Shown here in pieces: positions 141-15,125 of a stretch of 64,000 nucleotides of DNA. Under the pieces are notes generated by a model. The model did no database searches. It saw only the letters and a list, made by a program, of their open reading frames with translations, and was not told the DNA's origin. The translations under genes were made by a program, and so were the position numbers. Origin of the DNA: Acidobacteriota bacterium (GTDB lineage: Bacteria > Acidobacteriota > Terriglobia > Terriglobales > Acidobacteriaceae). The stretch covers positions 1,550,001 through 1,614,000 of the forward strand of contig JACPYL010000010.1 of the NCBI GenBank assembly GCA_016196065.1. Direction: 5' to 3'. How positions within the stretch are numbered: position 1 is the first letter of the stretch; each line of letters opens with the position of its first letter.

Positions 141-212
141 TGCTGGAAAACCTGTCGGGATCGAATGTAAAGCGTCGTGCTATCCTGTCGCGTTCCTGAA
201 GGGAAGAATCCA

Positions 213-1451
213 ATGTCGATTACGCGTCGTGGGTTTCTTGGTTCGGCTGCTGCCGCATCGCTGGCGGCGAGCCTCAATGCACAAGACAACAAGAAGAAGC
301 CTGACGCCACGCATGCTGAGCCGGCTCGTGGCGCGCAACACCCGATCATTGTCTGTGCGAACAATGGATTCCCTTATCTCGATGCTGCGTACCAATTTCT
401 GAAAACCGGTGGCGACACGCTCGACGCCGCGATCCGTGTGGTGAATGGTCCGGAGAATGACCCGTTGGAGGACAGTGTCGGCCTGGGTGGATTGCCCAAC
501 GAAGAAGGCGTGGTGGAACTCGATGCATGCTGCATGCATGGCCCGACCCGGCGTGCTGGATCCGTCGGCGCGGTCCGCAATATCAAGAATGTTTCGAATG
601 TCGCGAAGGCCGTGATGGAGCACACCGGCCACGTGATGCTCGTCGGAGAAGGCGCGGAGCGTTTTGCGGTGGCGATGGGCTTCCCGCGCGAGAACCTCCT
701 CACCGAGCGCTCGCGTAAAACCTGGCAACTTTGGAAGGAGTTCCACTCGACTGACGATTGGTGGGGGCCGGGGCTGGCGTCTCCGCAATTCAAGGCGCCC
801 GATATCGCTCCGCATTCCGAACTCTGGAACGACAAACTCAAGCGTATGGAAGAACGCGCTGCCGCAATTGGAATCGAACCAGAGTTTCGCATGGCCGCCA
901 TTCATCGCGTGATCTTTCCGTCCACGGGCACAATCCATTGTTCTGTCCTCAATGAAAAGGGAGAGATGTCCGGTGTCACCACGACCAGCGGCCTGGCTTT
1001 CAAATTGCCCGGACGTTGCGGCGACTCACCGGTGATTGGCGCTGGCTGCTACACCGATCAGGACATAGGTTCCGCGGGCGCGACCGGTGCGGGCGAAGAG
1101 AACATCAAAGTTGCCGGCGCTCACACGATCGTTGAAAACATGCGTCATGGCATGTCCCCGCAAGAGGCTGGAATGGATGCGCTGAAACGCATCGTGCGCA
1201 ATTACAACAACGACATGAGCCGGCTGAAATTCCTCGATATGACGTACTACATCCTGCGCAAGGATGGCGCATACGCCGGAGTGTCCCTATGGGAAGGCTA
1301 CTCTCCGGACTTTCCCCATAAGATCGCGGTCCACGACGGAACCCGCCGTTCGGAACAGACCGTTGCTCTGCTCAAAGGATCTTCGCAGGAATTTCCGCCC
1401 TTCCCGGCTCTGCCTCCCGGTGTGACACAGGAGTCGGAGTACTACAAATAG
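213..1451 (+). CDS. Tat-exported N4-(beta-N-acetylglucosaminyl)-L-asparaginase (glycosylasparaginase) family
   Basis: This is a 412-residue member of the Ntn-hydrolase glycosylasparaginase family, which cleaves the GlcNAc-Asn bond or related beta-aspartyl amides. ATG 213 is chosen because it follows a purine-rich GAAGGGAAGA and begins a twin-arginine leader (TRRGFLGSAAAASLAASLNA), so the enzyme should be exported folded. The block GVTTTSGLAFKLPGRCGDSP around residues 255-275 is the family's substrate pocket. The autocatalytic Thr is expected near residue 240, in TGTIHC. In the usual family motif the residues before the nucleophile are HD or HG; here they are TG, so processing may differ. The length is normal for the alpha plus beta precursor. 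Family is well supported, exact substrate is not. Confidence 0.87.
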   Translation: MSITRRGFLGSAAAASLAASLNAQDNKKKPDATHAEPARGAQHPIIVCANNGFPYLDAAYQFLKTGGDTLDAAIRVVNGPENDPLEDSVGLGGLPNEEGVVELDACCMHGPTRRAGSVGAVRNIKNVSNVAKAVMEHTGHVMLVGEGAERFAVAMGFPRENLLTERSRKTWQLWKEFHSTDDWWGPGLASPQFKAPDIAPHSELWNDKLKRMEERAAAIGIEPEFRMAAIHRVIFPSTGTIHCSVLNEKGEMSGVTTTSGLAFKLPGRCGDSPVIGAGCYTDQDIGSAGATGAGEENIKVAGAHTIVENMRHGMSPQEAGMDALKRIVRNYNNDMSRLKFLDMTYYILRKDGAYAGVSLWEGYSPDFPHKIAVHDGTRRSEQTVALLKGSSQEFPPFPALPPGVTQESEYYK

Positions 1452-1548: not shown

Positions 1549-1576
1549 TTGTGGTCATTTCCTGCAGGTGTACAAT
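1549..1576 (+). promoter_or_regulatory. Candidate sigma-70 promoter for the HPF-sigma fusion gene
   Basis: TTGTGG (1549-1554) and TACAAT (1571-1576) are separated by 16 bp, which is close to the housekeeping consensus. The predicted transcript would start near 1583 and leave about a 50-nt leader before ATG 1632. Seen in sequence; activity is inferred. Confidence 0.4.
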
Positions 1577-1631
1577 TGCCTTGTTAAGGACTGAAGCTTC
1601 ACGGGATCTTCTTCCCGCGCTCGAGGCTCTC

Positions 1632-2666
1632 ATGAATGTCCACGTCAGTTACAAGGTTCACAAAACTCCCGACATCGAAAAAGAAATCAACCACCAGATC
1701 GAAAAACTGCGCCGGCGTCTGCAGGTATTTCGCCCGGAACTCGTGCACCTCAAGGCGACTGTGGAACAGAACTCGGTGCGGGAAGGCACACATGTGTCTT
1801 TGAATCTGCGTTTGCCGTCGGGACAGTTTGCTTCCCAGGAAAGTGCACCTGTTCCCGTGGTCGCAATCAAGACAGCGTTCGAAGAAATCATGCAACAGAT
1901 CACTCGCCACAAGGATCTGCTGCGTTCCAGCCACAAATGGCGGCGTCCGAAAGGGAATGCAAAAGAGTCACCGGCGCCAGGCATTGCGTTTGAAAAGACG
2001 ATGGCGGTGGTGCATCCGTCGACCATCTCAGCCGACGACGTGCGCTCTTATGTAGACGCCAACCTTGCTCGTCTGCAACGCTTTGTAGAGCGTGAACTTT
2101 ACTTTCGGCATAGTGCGGACGAAATGACGGACGGCTTATCCACCGATGAGGTGGTGGATGAAGTCATTGCACAAGCTCTCACCGACGGTGATCGCCCTGA
2201 AAAACTCGCGCTCGAGCCGTGGCTTTACCGGTTGGCAATGAATGCCATGGATCAGATGAGCGCGCGCCAGAACGAAATGGACCCGGTTCATCTCGAAGAC
2301 AGCCGCCGACGGCAGAATGTTGAAGGATCGGATGAACCCGGCCTGCAATTTCACCAGCCCGACGAAATCTGGACCAAAGAGAGTTCCATTGCCGATCGCC
2401 GTTTGACCACGCCCGAGCAGGCTGCGTATTCCGACGAAATGGTGGCATTGGTGCAAGCGGCCCTGCAGGGCGCTAGCCGCACCGATCGCGAAGCTTTCCT
2501 CCTGTACGGAATTGAAGGCTTTTCCCTGAATGAAATTGCGGTGATTACCGGACGACATCCGGAAGCAGTTCGCGAGTCCATCGAACGGGCTCGCGAGCAG
2601 GTGCGAAACACACCGTCAGTGGCCAAGGAGTTTCCAAGAAAACTCGCGAAGAAAACAGTCGCCTGA
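1632..2666 (+). CDS. HPF/RaiA (S30AE) domain fused to a sigma-70-like domain pair
   Basis: This 344-residue protein has two unrelated parts. Residues 1-105 resemble the ribosome hibernation factor fold (HPF/RaiA/YfiA): an N-terminal strand MNVHVSYKVHKTPDIE, a basic helix (EKLRRRLQ), strands (LKATVEQNS, HVSLNLRLPSG) and a last helix ending in TRHKDLLRSSHKW. Residues about 135-210 look like sigma region 2 (YVDANLARLQRFVERELYF, EPWLYRLAMNAMDQM). Residues 265-328 look like region 4, with a helix-turn-helix in GFSLNEIAVITGRHPEAVRESI. A linker of about 30 residues and an acidic stretch at 215-255 separate the parts. ATG 1632 is preferred over upstream GTG 1542 because the HPF fold starts there. Role is inferred: it might couple ribosome state to transcription, or the sigma-like part may have been recruited for another contact. 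HPF part fairly secure; sigma activity untested. Confidence 0.75.
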   Translation: MNVHVSYKVHKTPDIEKEINHQIEKLRRRLQVFRPELVHLKATVEQNSVREGTHVSLNLRLPSGQFASQESAPVPVVAIKTAFEEIMQQITRHKDLLRSSHKWRRPKGNAKESPAPGIAFEKTMAVVHPSTISADDVRSYVDANLARLQRFVERELYFRHSADEMTDGLSTDEVVDEVIAQALTDGDRPEKLALEPWLYRLAMNAMDQMSARQNEMDPVHLEDSRRRQNVEGSDEPGLQFHQPDEIWTKESSIADRRLTTPEQAAYSDEMVALVQAALQGASRTDREAFLLYGIEGFSLNEIAVITGRHPEAVRESIERAREQVRNTPSVAKEFPRKLAKKTVA

Positions 2667-2724: not shown

Positions 2725-3366
2725 ATGATTCACGAAATCCTGCCTGTTGGCCCGCTGCAGTGCAACTGCTCCGTCATTGGCGATGAAACGACCCACGAAG
2801 CGATGGTCATCGACCCCGGTGACGACATCGAAGACATCGTTGCCCTGATCCGCAAGCACAACTTGAAGGTGAAGCAGATCGTCATCACGCACGCGCACAT
2901 TGATCACGTCGGCGGAGCGATGAAACTGCGTGCGCTCACCGGAGCGCCGATCCTGCTCAATCAGAATGATACGGCGCTGTTGAAGATGCTGGACGTACAG
3001 GCCACGTGGATCGGAATGGCCGCGCCCGGTGACGTGAAGATCGATGGAGAACTTGGCCATGGCGAAAGATTGTCCGCCGGAAATCTATCCGCAGACGTGA
3101 TTCACACGCCGGGCCACACCGAGGGAAGTGTTTGTCTTTACTTTCCCAGTGAGAAGACTCTGATTGCGGGCGACACCCTTTTCGCCGGCAGCATCGGCCG
3201 GACCGACCTCCCCGGCGGATCCTTCGAGAAGATCATGCGCTCGCTCCACCAAAGAGTGATGGCGTTACCGGATGACACCATCGTGATTCCTGGCCACGGC
3301 CCGAAAACCAGTATTGGAGAGGAAAGAGAAGGGAATCCGTATTTGCAGGAAGGGCACAGGTCCTAA
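2725..3366 (+). CDS. MBL-fold metallo-hydrolase, glyoxalase II-like
   Basis: This 213-residue metallo-beta-lactamase-fold hydrolase belongs to the small YcbL/GloB-like group. The metal-binding THAHIDHVGG sits near residue 55. It is followed by HTPGHTEGS, the AGDTLF aspartate that bridges the two metals, and a C-terminal IPGHGP histidine. It lacks the long C-terminal glutathione-binding domain of true hydroxyacylglutathione hydrolase, as is usual for the short members. The substrate is probably a thioester, but this cannot be told from sequence. It lies 58 bp after the HPF-sigma fusion in the same direction and could be co-transcribed. It converges on secG. Confidence 0.88.
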   Translation: MIHEILPVGPLQCNCSVIGDETTHEAMVIDPGDDIEDIVALIRKHNLKVKQIVITHAHIDHVGGAMKLRALTGAPILLNQNDTALLKMLDVQATWIGMAAPGDVKIDGELGHGERLSAGNLSADVIHTPGHTEGSVCLYFPSEKTLIAGDTLFAGSIGRTDLPGGSFEKIMRSLHQRVMALPDDTIVIPGHGPKTSIGEEREGNPYLQEGHRS

Positions 3367-14549: not shown

Positions 14550-15125
14550 TCATCTCCTGACTTGCTCTCGTACGCTCGTCACCGCCCGAAAAAGCTGGGC
14601 TTTTACCGTGCCTGTTCTGAGGTTAAGCACCTCTGCGATTTCCTTCAGTTGCATTTCTTCCGCAAACCGCAAAATGAAAACTTCTTTCTGGCGAGGTGAT
14701 AGTTTATCCACCGCCTGCCACACTGCTGCCAGTTCCTGTTGCGCGATCAAGCCTCGCTCGGGCGTTGCCTTCACGCATGGAGGCTCATACTCGTCCATCC
14801 CAACGCCGGCGTCCTCCAGTCCCAACAATCGTTTCCAAAAGCCAGCGCGACGGTTCCTCGCCTCGTCCCGCGCCAGGTTTACCGCAATCCTCAGCAGCCA
14901 GGTTTGGACGCTGCAATCGCCCCGAAAACTTCGCATGCTCATGTAGGCGCGAAGAAAACATTCCTGCGTCAGGTTGTCCGCGTCTTCTGGCCGTTTGAGG
15001 ATCAGGAGCAGCACGCGATAAACCTTGCGCTGGTACTGGCGGACGATCCGATCGAAGTCCGCGGCGGTGATTGCCGTTGGGACGACCTCGGTTTGCGCCG
15101 CTAACGCCGGGAGAGAAAGGCTCAT
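14550..15125 (-). CDS. ECF RNA polymerase sigma factor
   Basis: This 191-residue ECF sigma factor has region 2 at about residues 25-90 (FDRIVRQYQRKVYRVLLLILKRPEDADNLTQECFLRAY) and region 4 at about 130-185 (LSPRQKEVFILRFAEEMQLKEIAEVLNLRTGTVKAQLFRA). ATG 15125 is preferred; the longer frame to 15218 runs through the control region. An ECF-type promoter upstream suggests self-regulation. It heads a three-gene operon with an anti-sigma-like and a CpxP-like protein. Confidence 0.9.
   Translation of the reverse strand: MSLSLPALAAQTEVVPTAITAADFDRIVRQYQRKVYRVLLLILKRPEDADNLTQECFLRAYMSMRSFRGDCSVQTWLLRIAVNLARDEARNRRAGFWKRLLGLEDAGVGMDEYEPPCVKATPERGLIAQQELAAVWQAVDKLSPRQKEVFILRFAEEMQLKEIAEVLNLRTGTVKAQLFRAVTSVREQVRR

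Follow-up and report, generated by a model that had tools for sequence, protein, structure and literature searches.

A recurrent fusion of an S30AE ribosome-hibernation domain to an ECF-sigma-like module in Acidobacteriota and Pseudomonadota

Near the start of a 64,000-nucleotide stretch of DNA from an Acidobacteriota bacterium (contig JACPYL010000010.1, positions 1,550,001 to 1,614,000 of the forward strand; this whole stretch is called the window), one open frame appears to join a ribosome-hibernation domain to a sigma-like module. The locus raises the question of whether such a protein is real and, if so, what it might do. The initial annotation had placed an S30AE domain and sigma-like regions 2 and 4 on one polypeptide and had proposed that the fusion could link ribosome dormancy to a transcription programme. 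The frame and its parts are as follows.

1632–2666, plus strand: coding sequence of the S30AE/ECF-sigma-like fusion, an open frame of 344 amino acids plus stop.
1632–1946, plus strand: S30AE (short HPF/RaiA-like) domain, residues 1–105, from Pfam PF02482, HPF/YfiA profile matches and conservation.
2031–2273, plus strand: sigma region 2-like helices, residues 134–214, from TIGR02937 and weak sigma-2 profile matches.
2328–2366, plus strand: linker motif SDEPxLQFHQPDE, residues 233–245, from conservation, with a QPD(E/D) core in nearly all aligned relatives.
2433–2609, plus strand: sigma region 4-like helix-turn-helix, residues 268–326, from PF08281 and the structure model.

The frame had been listed mechanically from a GTG at 1542; the conserved start is the ATG at 1632. 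At the position of this ATG, 55 of 57 aligned family proteins read MNV or MNL, and a Shine-Dalgarno-like GAGG lies just 5′ of it at 1623–1626. The set of 57 relatives excludes L010 (two-frame split), L011 (contig end), L012 (the same as the window) and exact duplicates. Within it, L063 starts LQR as its match begins at residue 26, and L006, which contains an X, was excluded from the first model. Both halves were found in one stop-free frame in 54 of 100 genomes of the home family, the window genome counted, while genome G086, where a contig end cuts the fusion, was left outside the 54. Home-family members are as little as about 41% identical to the window protein. Outside it, 15 of 16 fusion loci hold both halves in one frame, and the 16th lies at a contig edge; in 4 of the 16 the initial match ran through a stop, and the stop-split check puts both halves before that stop. 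Moreover, evolutionary distance in one half tracks that in the other (Mantel r of 0.82, 0.92 and 0.73 for three sets; in no set did any of 999 permutations reach the observed value). Because 54 of the 100 family genomes carry both halves in one frame, the fusion is not a sequencing join, and a frameshift, chimera or assembly join of two genes was ruled out. The claim of a single polypeptide was thus borne out by the relatives: the artificial join that the initial annotation had raised against itself was not seen, and the same fusion, which it had suggested looking for in related genomes, is present in the family, in other Acidobacteriota families and in Pseudomonadota. These results confirm a real single protein, made of an S30AE domain and an ECF-sigma-like half that both score above curated cut-offs, and demonstrate its architecture, its deep conservation and the co-inheritance of its halves. 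A draft genome showed a fusion match split over two frames, probably by a frameshift (L010:5000-6008); this locus was excluded from the counts.

In the first half, Pfam PF02482 (Ribosomal_S30AE) matched residues 9–95 with 30.4 bits (cut-off 23.7), and TIGR00741 scored 22.2, under its cut-off of 40.9. At E 0.01 the Pfam model matched 21 of the 22 aligned members, and its score exceeded the cut-off in all six distant acidobacterial relatives scanned, out of 16 found. A 16-sequence profile of the first ~110 residues matched solved HPF/YfiA chains (best E 1.1e-8). In helix 2, H93, K94, L97 and R98 are invariant across the 57 home-family relatives. Of 17 aligned relatives, 14 have a positive net charge in this helix (+5 in Orf11, a plasmid-borne relative discussed below), and the other three have −1 or 0. 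By analogy, H93, K94 and R98 may be ribosome contacts. The S30AE assignment rests on sequence, because the S30AE-only structure model was poor (mean pLDDT 58.5) and the fold search uninformative, its top matches being generic ferredoxin-like and not HPF. The S30AE domain of the ribosome half is of the ordinary kind. Pfam, read to E 10, gave no match in the window protein to the C-terminal dimerisation domain of long HPF, which short HPF/RaiA can do without.

The idea that the fusion replaces an ordinary HPF was rejected for the window genome, which has a second S30AE protein. This separate, higher-scoring protein (G000:C25:577807-578073, minus strand) lies in a 235-aa frame and is perhaps an ordinary long HPF. 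The fusion is the sole S30AE match in genome G028, and the tally of S30AE in 74 of 74 better genomes includes the fusion itself.

In the second half, PF08281 (Sigma70_r4_2) matched residues 276–323 with 32.0 bits (cut-off 25.7), and the NCBIfam model TIGR02937 (sigma70-ECF) matched residues 144–326 with 44.2 bits, a slim margin over its cut-off of 42.9. Sigma70_r4_2 was matched in all 22 aligned members at E 0.01 and scored above its cut-off in three of the six distant acidobacterial relatives scanned (of 16). Pfam Sigma70_r2 (PF04542) was absent from the window protein and matched 1 of the 22 aligned members (best E 0.0088). In the region 2-like part, the DxxQE of ECF sigmas appears as ExxDE (residues 173–177), and WLYRLA is found at 197–202. 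The whole-protein profile of relatives matched the sigma-E structure (E 8.3e-15); with the region-2 segment profile alone, the top match was the sigma factor 1h3l, weakly (E 0.0017), followed by sigma-E. A structure model built from 7 sequences had a mean pLDDT of 55.4, and only its sigma part was usable. There, most 10-residue blocks of the helices reached pLDDT 62–85, and Foldseek ranked SigW and other ECF sigmas first. The domain call, S30AE plus sigma-like regions, therefore held, as both halves score over curated cut-offs, and the sigma-like fold whose lack in a predicted structure had been named as an objection is present. Another ECF-type sigma factor is encoded elsewhere in the window, where its region 4 (14580–14729, minus strand) scored 59.5 bits to PF08281.

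The residues by which sigma factors read promoters and bind the polymerase core are well established, and they were mapped onto the fusion by alignment. The charges of 57 home-family fusions were compared with those of 29 ECF sigmas of the window genome; this ECF set favours strong ECFs because it is the best-scoring 30 of 63 region-4 matches, with L141 dropped. The mean net charge of the recognition helix was +1.07 in the 57 fusions and +3.69 in the 29 ECFs, and that of the region 2.4 helix was +1.26 and +3.55, respectively. Position 204, which reads the −10 element, is asparagine in 22 of the 29 ECFs and is replaced in most fusion relatives. Position 316 is arginine in 16 of 29 ECFs but serine in 46 of 57 fusions, and position 319 is arginine in 21 of 29 ECFs but in only 10 of 57 fusions. 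The fusion family keeps R314 in 42 of 57 members and R321 in 55 of 57. The window protein itself retains N204, R314 and R319 and might therefore still make some DNA contacts. The ExxDE motif is well kept (E173 in 54, D176 in 50 and E177 in 53 of the 57). DxxQE of region 2.2 is the core-binding motif of sigma factors, and we infer that ExxDE is its equivalent in contacting the RNA polymerase core, although the motif may be structural instead.

The conservation of the same segments was compared with that of one window-genome ECF, represented by the best-scoring 30 of 95 orthologue matches from 94 genomes. In these 30 control sequences, regions 2.4 and 4.2 were among the most conserved (entropy ratios 0.24 and 0.41), and the linker was the least conserved, with an entropy of 2.67 of the mean. 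The 30 nearest fusion relatives showed the reverse: relative to the sigma-part mean, regions 2.4 (1.23) and 4.2 (1.31) were the least conserved sigma segments compared, the whole linker was average (0.98), and the motif at 233–245 was the most conserved (0.36). With all 57 fusion relatives the contrast was milder (2.4, 1.14; 4.2, 1.16; linker, 1.07; motif 233–245, 0.53). The control set is more alike overall than the fusion set (72% versus 60% identity), and the evidence for inverted conservation is strong, not final, because the control is a single family and more similar overall. Of the sigma-side segments compared, the linker motif, which ends in QPDE, varies least, and among 17 proteins drawn from all groups Q242, P243 and D244 vary little if at all. 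These results demonstrate a loss of promoter-reading features: the promoter-reading faces have lost positive charge and are weakly constrained, the reverse of the one control ECF. The region-4 helix-turn-helix had been described as intact; its fold is kept, but its promoter-reading face, like that of region 2.4, is less basic and poorly conserved. The proposal that the fusion directs a transcription programme found no support, given the low charge of the recognition helix (+1.07 versus +3.69) and the loss, in most members, of the −10 asparagine and two region 4.2 arginines.

Two further elements were noted upstream of the gene.

1567–1576, plus strand: promoter-like GGTGTACAAT, 56–65 bases 5′ of the start codon, the sole match in the window (0.14 expected).
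1602–1617, plus strand: candidate 5′ leader hairpin CGGGA...TCCCG, just upstream of GAGG; suggestive.

A GGTGTANAAT-type motif was found upstream in 45 of the 57 relatives, mostly ~55–70 bases before the start, and it looks like an ordinary −10 element. No regulon is visible, because a stricter form of the pattern occurs twice in the window genome, against once for a reversed control pattern. Across the 100 family genomes, the strict motif was present in 58, with at most five matches each. The other strict copy in the window genome (L169 ~902–914; G000:C10:1541901-1541913), 9.7 kb before the fusion, sits near the start of a 370-aa frame. The hairpin before the ribosome-binding site is suggestive only: the mean energy z was −0.48, versus +0.09 for a control stretch, and RNAalifold gave 4 pairs, of which 2 show a double change in one or more sequences. 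In some relatives a leader arm AGCTTC could pair with GAGGCT.

The direct neighbours in the window were identified by Pfam.

177–1451, plus strand: upstream neighbour of the asparaginase family (Asparaginase_2), start codon as listed.
2725–3366, plus strand: downstream neighbour, a metallo-beta-lactamase-fold hydrolase.

Neighbours were analysed at 58 of 64 loci (46 of the home family and 12 distant), the other six being without a picked fusion ORF. A similar asparaginase gene, its identity read from a representative, lies near the fusion in 30 of the 46 home-family loci. In 35 of the 46, a baeRF10-type, release-factor-like gene lies directly 3′ of the fusion on the same strand; 31 of these 35 gaps measure 13–95 bases, and the 4 overlaps arise from the choice of the longest start. 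The baeRF10 identity comes from one representative scanned with Pfam, the 35 genes matching a second baeRF10 protein by phmmer. A distant family (L153) has a baeRF10 gene as well, ~310 bases 3′ of the fusion and on the same strand. When the family was searched together with positive genomes, baeRF10 was missing from the window genome and from one of the two congeners searched; it is absent in G000 (the window genome) and G028, and adjoins the fusion in G093 and G049. Among the 12 distant loci, an OB-HD gene, which we take to be YhaM-like, lies directly 5′ of the fusion in 5, and a class I/II aminotransferase gene lies directly 3′ in 7. The association of the fusion with OB-HD genes, with release-factor-like genes and, on plasmids, with stress genes is an observation.

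Regulatory genes were seen at a few loci. STAS-domain genes lie directly beside two distant relatives of one family (L165:7396-7734 and L168:8099-8497, both minus strand), an RsbRD_N/HATPase kinase gene lies beside the Cupriavidus fusion (L150:9316-10545, plus strand), and a STAS gene also occurs in the home-family locus L075. These STAS and RsbRD_N neighbours suggest a regulatory partner switch in some lineages.

The distribution in the phylum is patchy, since 22 of 396 genomes surveyed matched at E 1e-15; 15 of these belong to eight families other than the home family. A plasmid search with an Agrobacterium relative as query matched 32 of 72,556 records, each match spanning 80% or more of the query. 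The hosts are Alphaproteobacteria and Burkholderiales and, at 25–26% identity, Enterobacter, Klebsiella, Aeromonas, E. coli and Acinetobacter. Existing annotations name these copies variously as sigma-70 family factor, FliA, sigma-28, sigma factor-like HTH protein or hypothetical protein. S30AE scores weakly in Pseudomonadota, being above its cut-off in one of six and absent in E. coli Orf11. A lone oddity of one genome was rejected, as other families of the phylum and Pseudomonadota carry the fusion. A phage origin was also rejected: one distant relative as query had no match in 50,697 phage records (E 1e-3). The initial annotation knew of no described protein of this type, and our literature search, which had bioRxiv preprints and most subscription papers outside its reach, likewise found no description of an S30AE–sigma fusion, nor of Orf11 as one, in the titles, abstracts and passages it covered. 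A recurrent natural fusion of a ribosome-hibernation domain with a sigma-derived module is of interest in itself.

Plasmid copies mostly lie near stress genes. Of 14 inspected plasmid loci, 13 are annotated with one or more stress, chaperone or protein-quality genes close to the fusion; the 14th (L150, Cupriavidus) is unannotated, and a DnaK-like start was read there in an ORF 2.5 kb away on the opposite strand. Three Hsp20 genes, FtsH, an AAA ATPase and HdeD lie beside the fusion in L143, L144 and L231, and the AAA ATPase of L143 carries Clp domains. Other loci hold an ATPase and HdeD (L232), HdeD and YfdX (L146), HdeD only (L230) or a predicted yfdX1 only (L145). The Burkholderiaceae loci L147 and L233 have three Hsp20 genes, GroES, GroEL and DnaK, and L148 has three Hsp20 genes with GroEL ~8 kb off. 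The alphaproteobacterial islands L143 and L144 also hold genes for a complex I accessory-type subunit, a rhomboid protease and a ClpP-type subunit.

The fusion gene lies between hdeD-GI and trx-GI in E. coli (L149:11001-12146), Acinetobacter (L151:8001-9146) and Klebsiella (L152:6001-7146). In the gene order given for the tLST in the available part of PMC8290217, orf11 sits between hdeD-GI and trx-GI, and the E. coli gene was identified as orf11 because of this placement. By Pfam, E. coli Orf11 has a weak sigma-4 match only and no S30AE. When it was aligned by hhalign with 12 relatives, a set that excluded all gammaproteobacterial members, the homology ran from the first residue to residue 351 of 381 (probability 99.9, E 1.7e-33, 335 columns). 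On this full-length homology of the E. coli copy, tLST Orf11 is to all appearance a decayed member of the fusion family. Orf11-like DNA was found in 152 of 5426 complete E. coli genomes; in 144 of the 152 the match spans 80% or more of orf11. According to the accessible text of PMC8407380, 7 of 13 deleted tLST1 genes were needed for heat or chlorine resistance in E. coli, orf11 not being named, and deletion of orf11 is given in part of the published record as leaving lipid oxidation unchanged. As far as these sources extend, the deletion results from E. coli lend no support to a role of orf11 in acute killing. Orf11, a stress-island gene without known function, gains a testable domain identity.

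What the protein does can be proposed only in graded terms; ribosome binding, polymerase binding, joint parking and the physiological role are all things that we infer. Our tentative reading, to which we would give somewhat less than an even chance, is a ribosome-docking stress or dormancy protein that carries a promoter-blind sigma mimic, with the RNA polymerase core as the likeliest partner. The S30AE end would bind the small ribosomal subunit as short HPF/RaiA does, and the sigma-like end would descend from an ECF sigma whose promoter reading is largely gone. This second end would keep the polymerase-facing acidic ExxDE motif and the strongly conserved QPDE linker and act as a protein-binding mimic. 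With the polymerase core as its partner, idle ribosomes and idle polymerase could be held, silenced or protected together; a sigma or an anti-sigma would be an alternative partner for the sigma-like end. The more specific form, a dual hibernation factor that docks the idle 30S through S30AE and the polymerase core through the promoter-blind mimic, the two being co-parked under stress, is on the unlikely side. If it were true, the fusion would be an old family common to Acidobacteriota and Pseudomonadota, with Orf11 as its travelling version. The available text of PMC6904343 describes the shut-down of polymerase (Rsd) and ribosome (RMF/HPF) in E. coli as co-ordinated via separate factors; a single protein touching both polymerase and ribosome would be a physical link between the two shut-downs. 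It would also offer a sigma-derived module that seemingly lacks promoter reading yet keeps much of the rest.

The ribosome-docking reading is weakened most by the STAS and RsbRD_N neighbours, its strongest counter-evidence, because they suggest a sigma-regulatory network. Such a network is central to another explanation, in which the sigma-like half sequesters an anti-sigma in the manner of PhyR and the S30AE domain is the sensor that replaces the receiver domain. PhyR is a response regulator with a C-terminal receiver domain and a sigma-derived module that acts by mimicry and binds NepR. The PhyR_sigma-like Pfam model matches all 22 aligned members at E 0.01, PhyR_sigma2 matches one Burkholderia relative (E 6.4e-4, below cut-off), and the STAS genes beside two distant relatives and in L075 and the RsbRD_N kinase beside one fit the same scheme. 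We nevertheless consider it distinctly unlikely. No Pfam match to a receiver domain was found in the window protein, and in the PDB true sigmas give the best matches, with PhyR ranking behind them. NepR (PF18557) had no match in the window genome at E 1, with a model that exceeded its cut-off in just 1 of 14 controls, and no anti-sigma was recognised among the recurrent home-family neighbours, of which two clusters were scanned with Pfam, singletons being unannotated.

The sigma-like half could also still work as an ECF sigma gated by the state of the ribosome, being off (or on) while bound to idle ribosomes and driving a recovery programme when released. The TIGR02937 score above cut-off, the Sigma70_r4_2 matches in 22 of 22 aligned members, the retention of R314 (42 of 57) and R321 (55 of 57) and the WLYRLA largely kept in the home family agree with a working sigma, and ECF sigmas with fused regulatory domains, as presented in the available part of PMC8999054, give a precedent. 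This reading is nonetheless unlikely, in view of the lost positive charge and DNA-contact residues, the weak constraint on the promoter-reading faces and the further decay in E. coli Orf11. ECF-type promoter motifs have a form of their own, from which the conserved upstream element, of the TANAAT-type −10 kind, is set apart, and the strict element (two copies in the window genome, one for the reversed control) points to no visible regulon. The least probable account, a poor candidate on present evidence, is that S30AE was repurposed and lost ribosome binding, the protein being a stress-island accessory or a nucleic-acid-binding protein of other function. It draws on the weak S30AE of Pseudomonadota (one of six above cut-off, none in E. 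coli Orf11) and the place of these genes among stress genes, but it sits poorly with a helix 2 that is positive in 14 of 17 relatives (+5 in Orf11), with H93, K94 and R98 invariant in 57 home-family relatives and with the baeRF10 linkage in two distant families.

Compared with known systems, the fusion shares the S30AE domain and its conserved basic helix 2 with short HPF/RaiA (YfiA) and with long HPF, but its C-terminal half is sigma-like and not the dimerisation domain of long HPF. With PhyR it has in common a sigma-derived module with sigma-4 similarity; it differs from PhyR in that a receiver domain was not found in the window protein, nor NepR in the window genome. ECF sigmas with fused regulatory domains likewise combine a sigma-2/sigma-4 core with an extra domain, but the fused domains named in the available part of PMC8999054 are SnoaL-like, anti-sigma and YCII-type, unlike the S30AE here, and its main text contains neither 'S30AE' nor 'ribosom'. 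HibA, an archaeal HPF/RaiA–CBS fusion (PMC13324472, in its accessible part), is an example of an HPF/RaiA domain joined to a different module; unlike in our fusion, the partner module there is CBS and contacts the large subunit, and a sigma-like part goes unmentioned in that part of the paper. In the portion of PMC6514570 available, Burroughs and Aravind report baeRF–HPF neighbourhoods and suggest a joint translational shut-down. The baeRF10-type gene after the fusion is the same linkage, but in our case the HPF partner carries a fused sigma-like half, which that portion does not mention. As in the tLST, several alphaproteobacterial members lie in islands with Hsp20, FtsH, AAA ATPase and HdeD, two of them with thioredoxin genes. 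Unlike tLST orf11, the window gene lies outside any heat-shock/proteostasis island, with asparaginase and metallo-hydrolase genes as direct neighbours, and its protein keeps a recognisable S30AE and WLYRLA where Orf11 is more decayed; the QPDD/QPDE linker is common to both.
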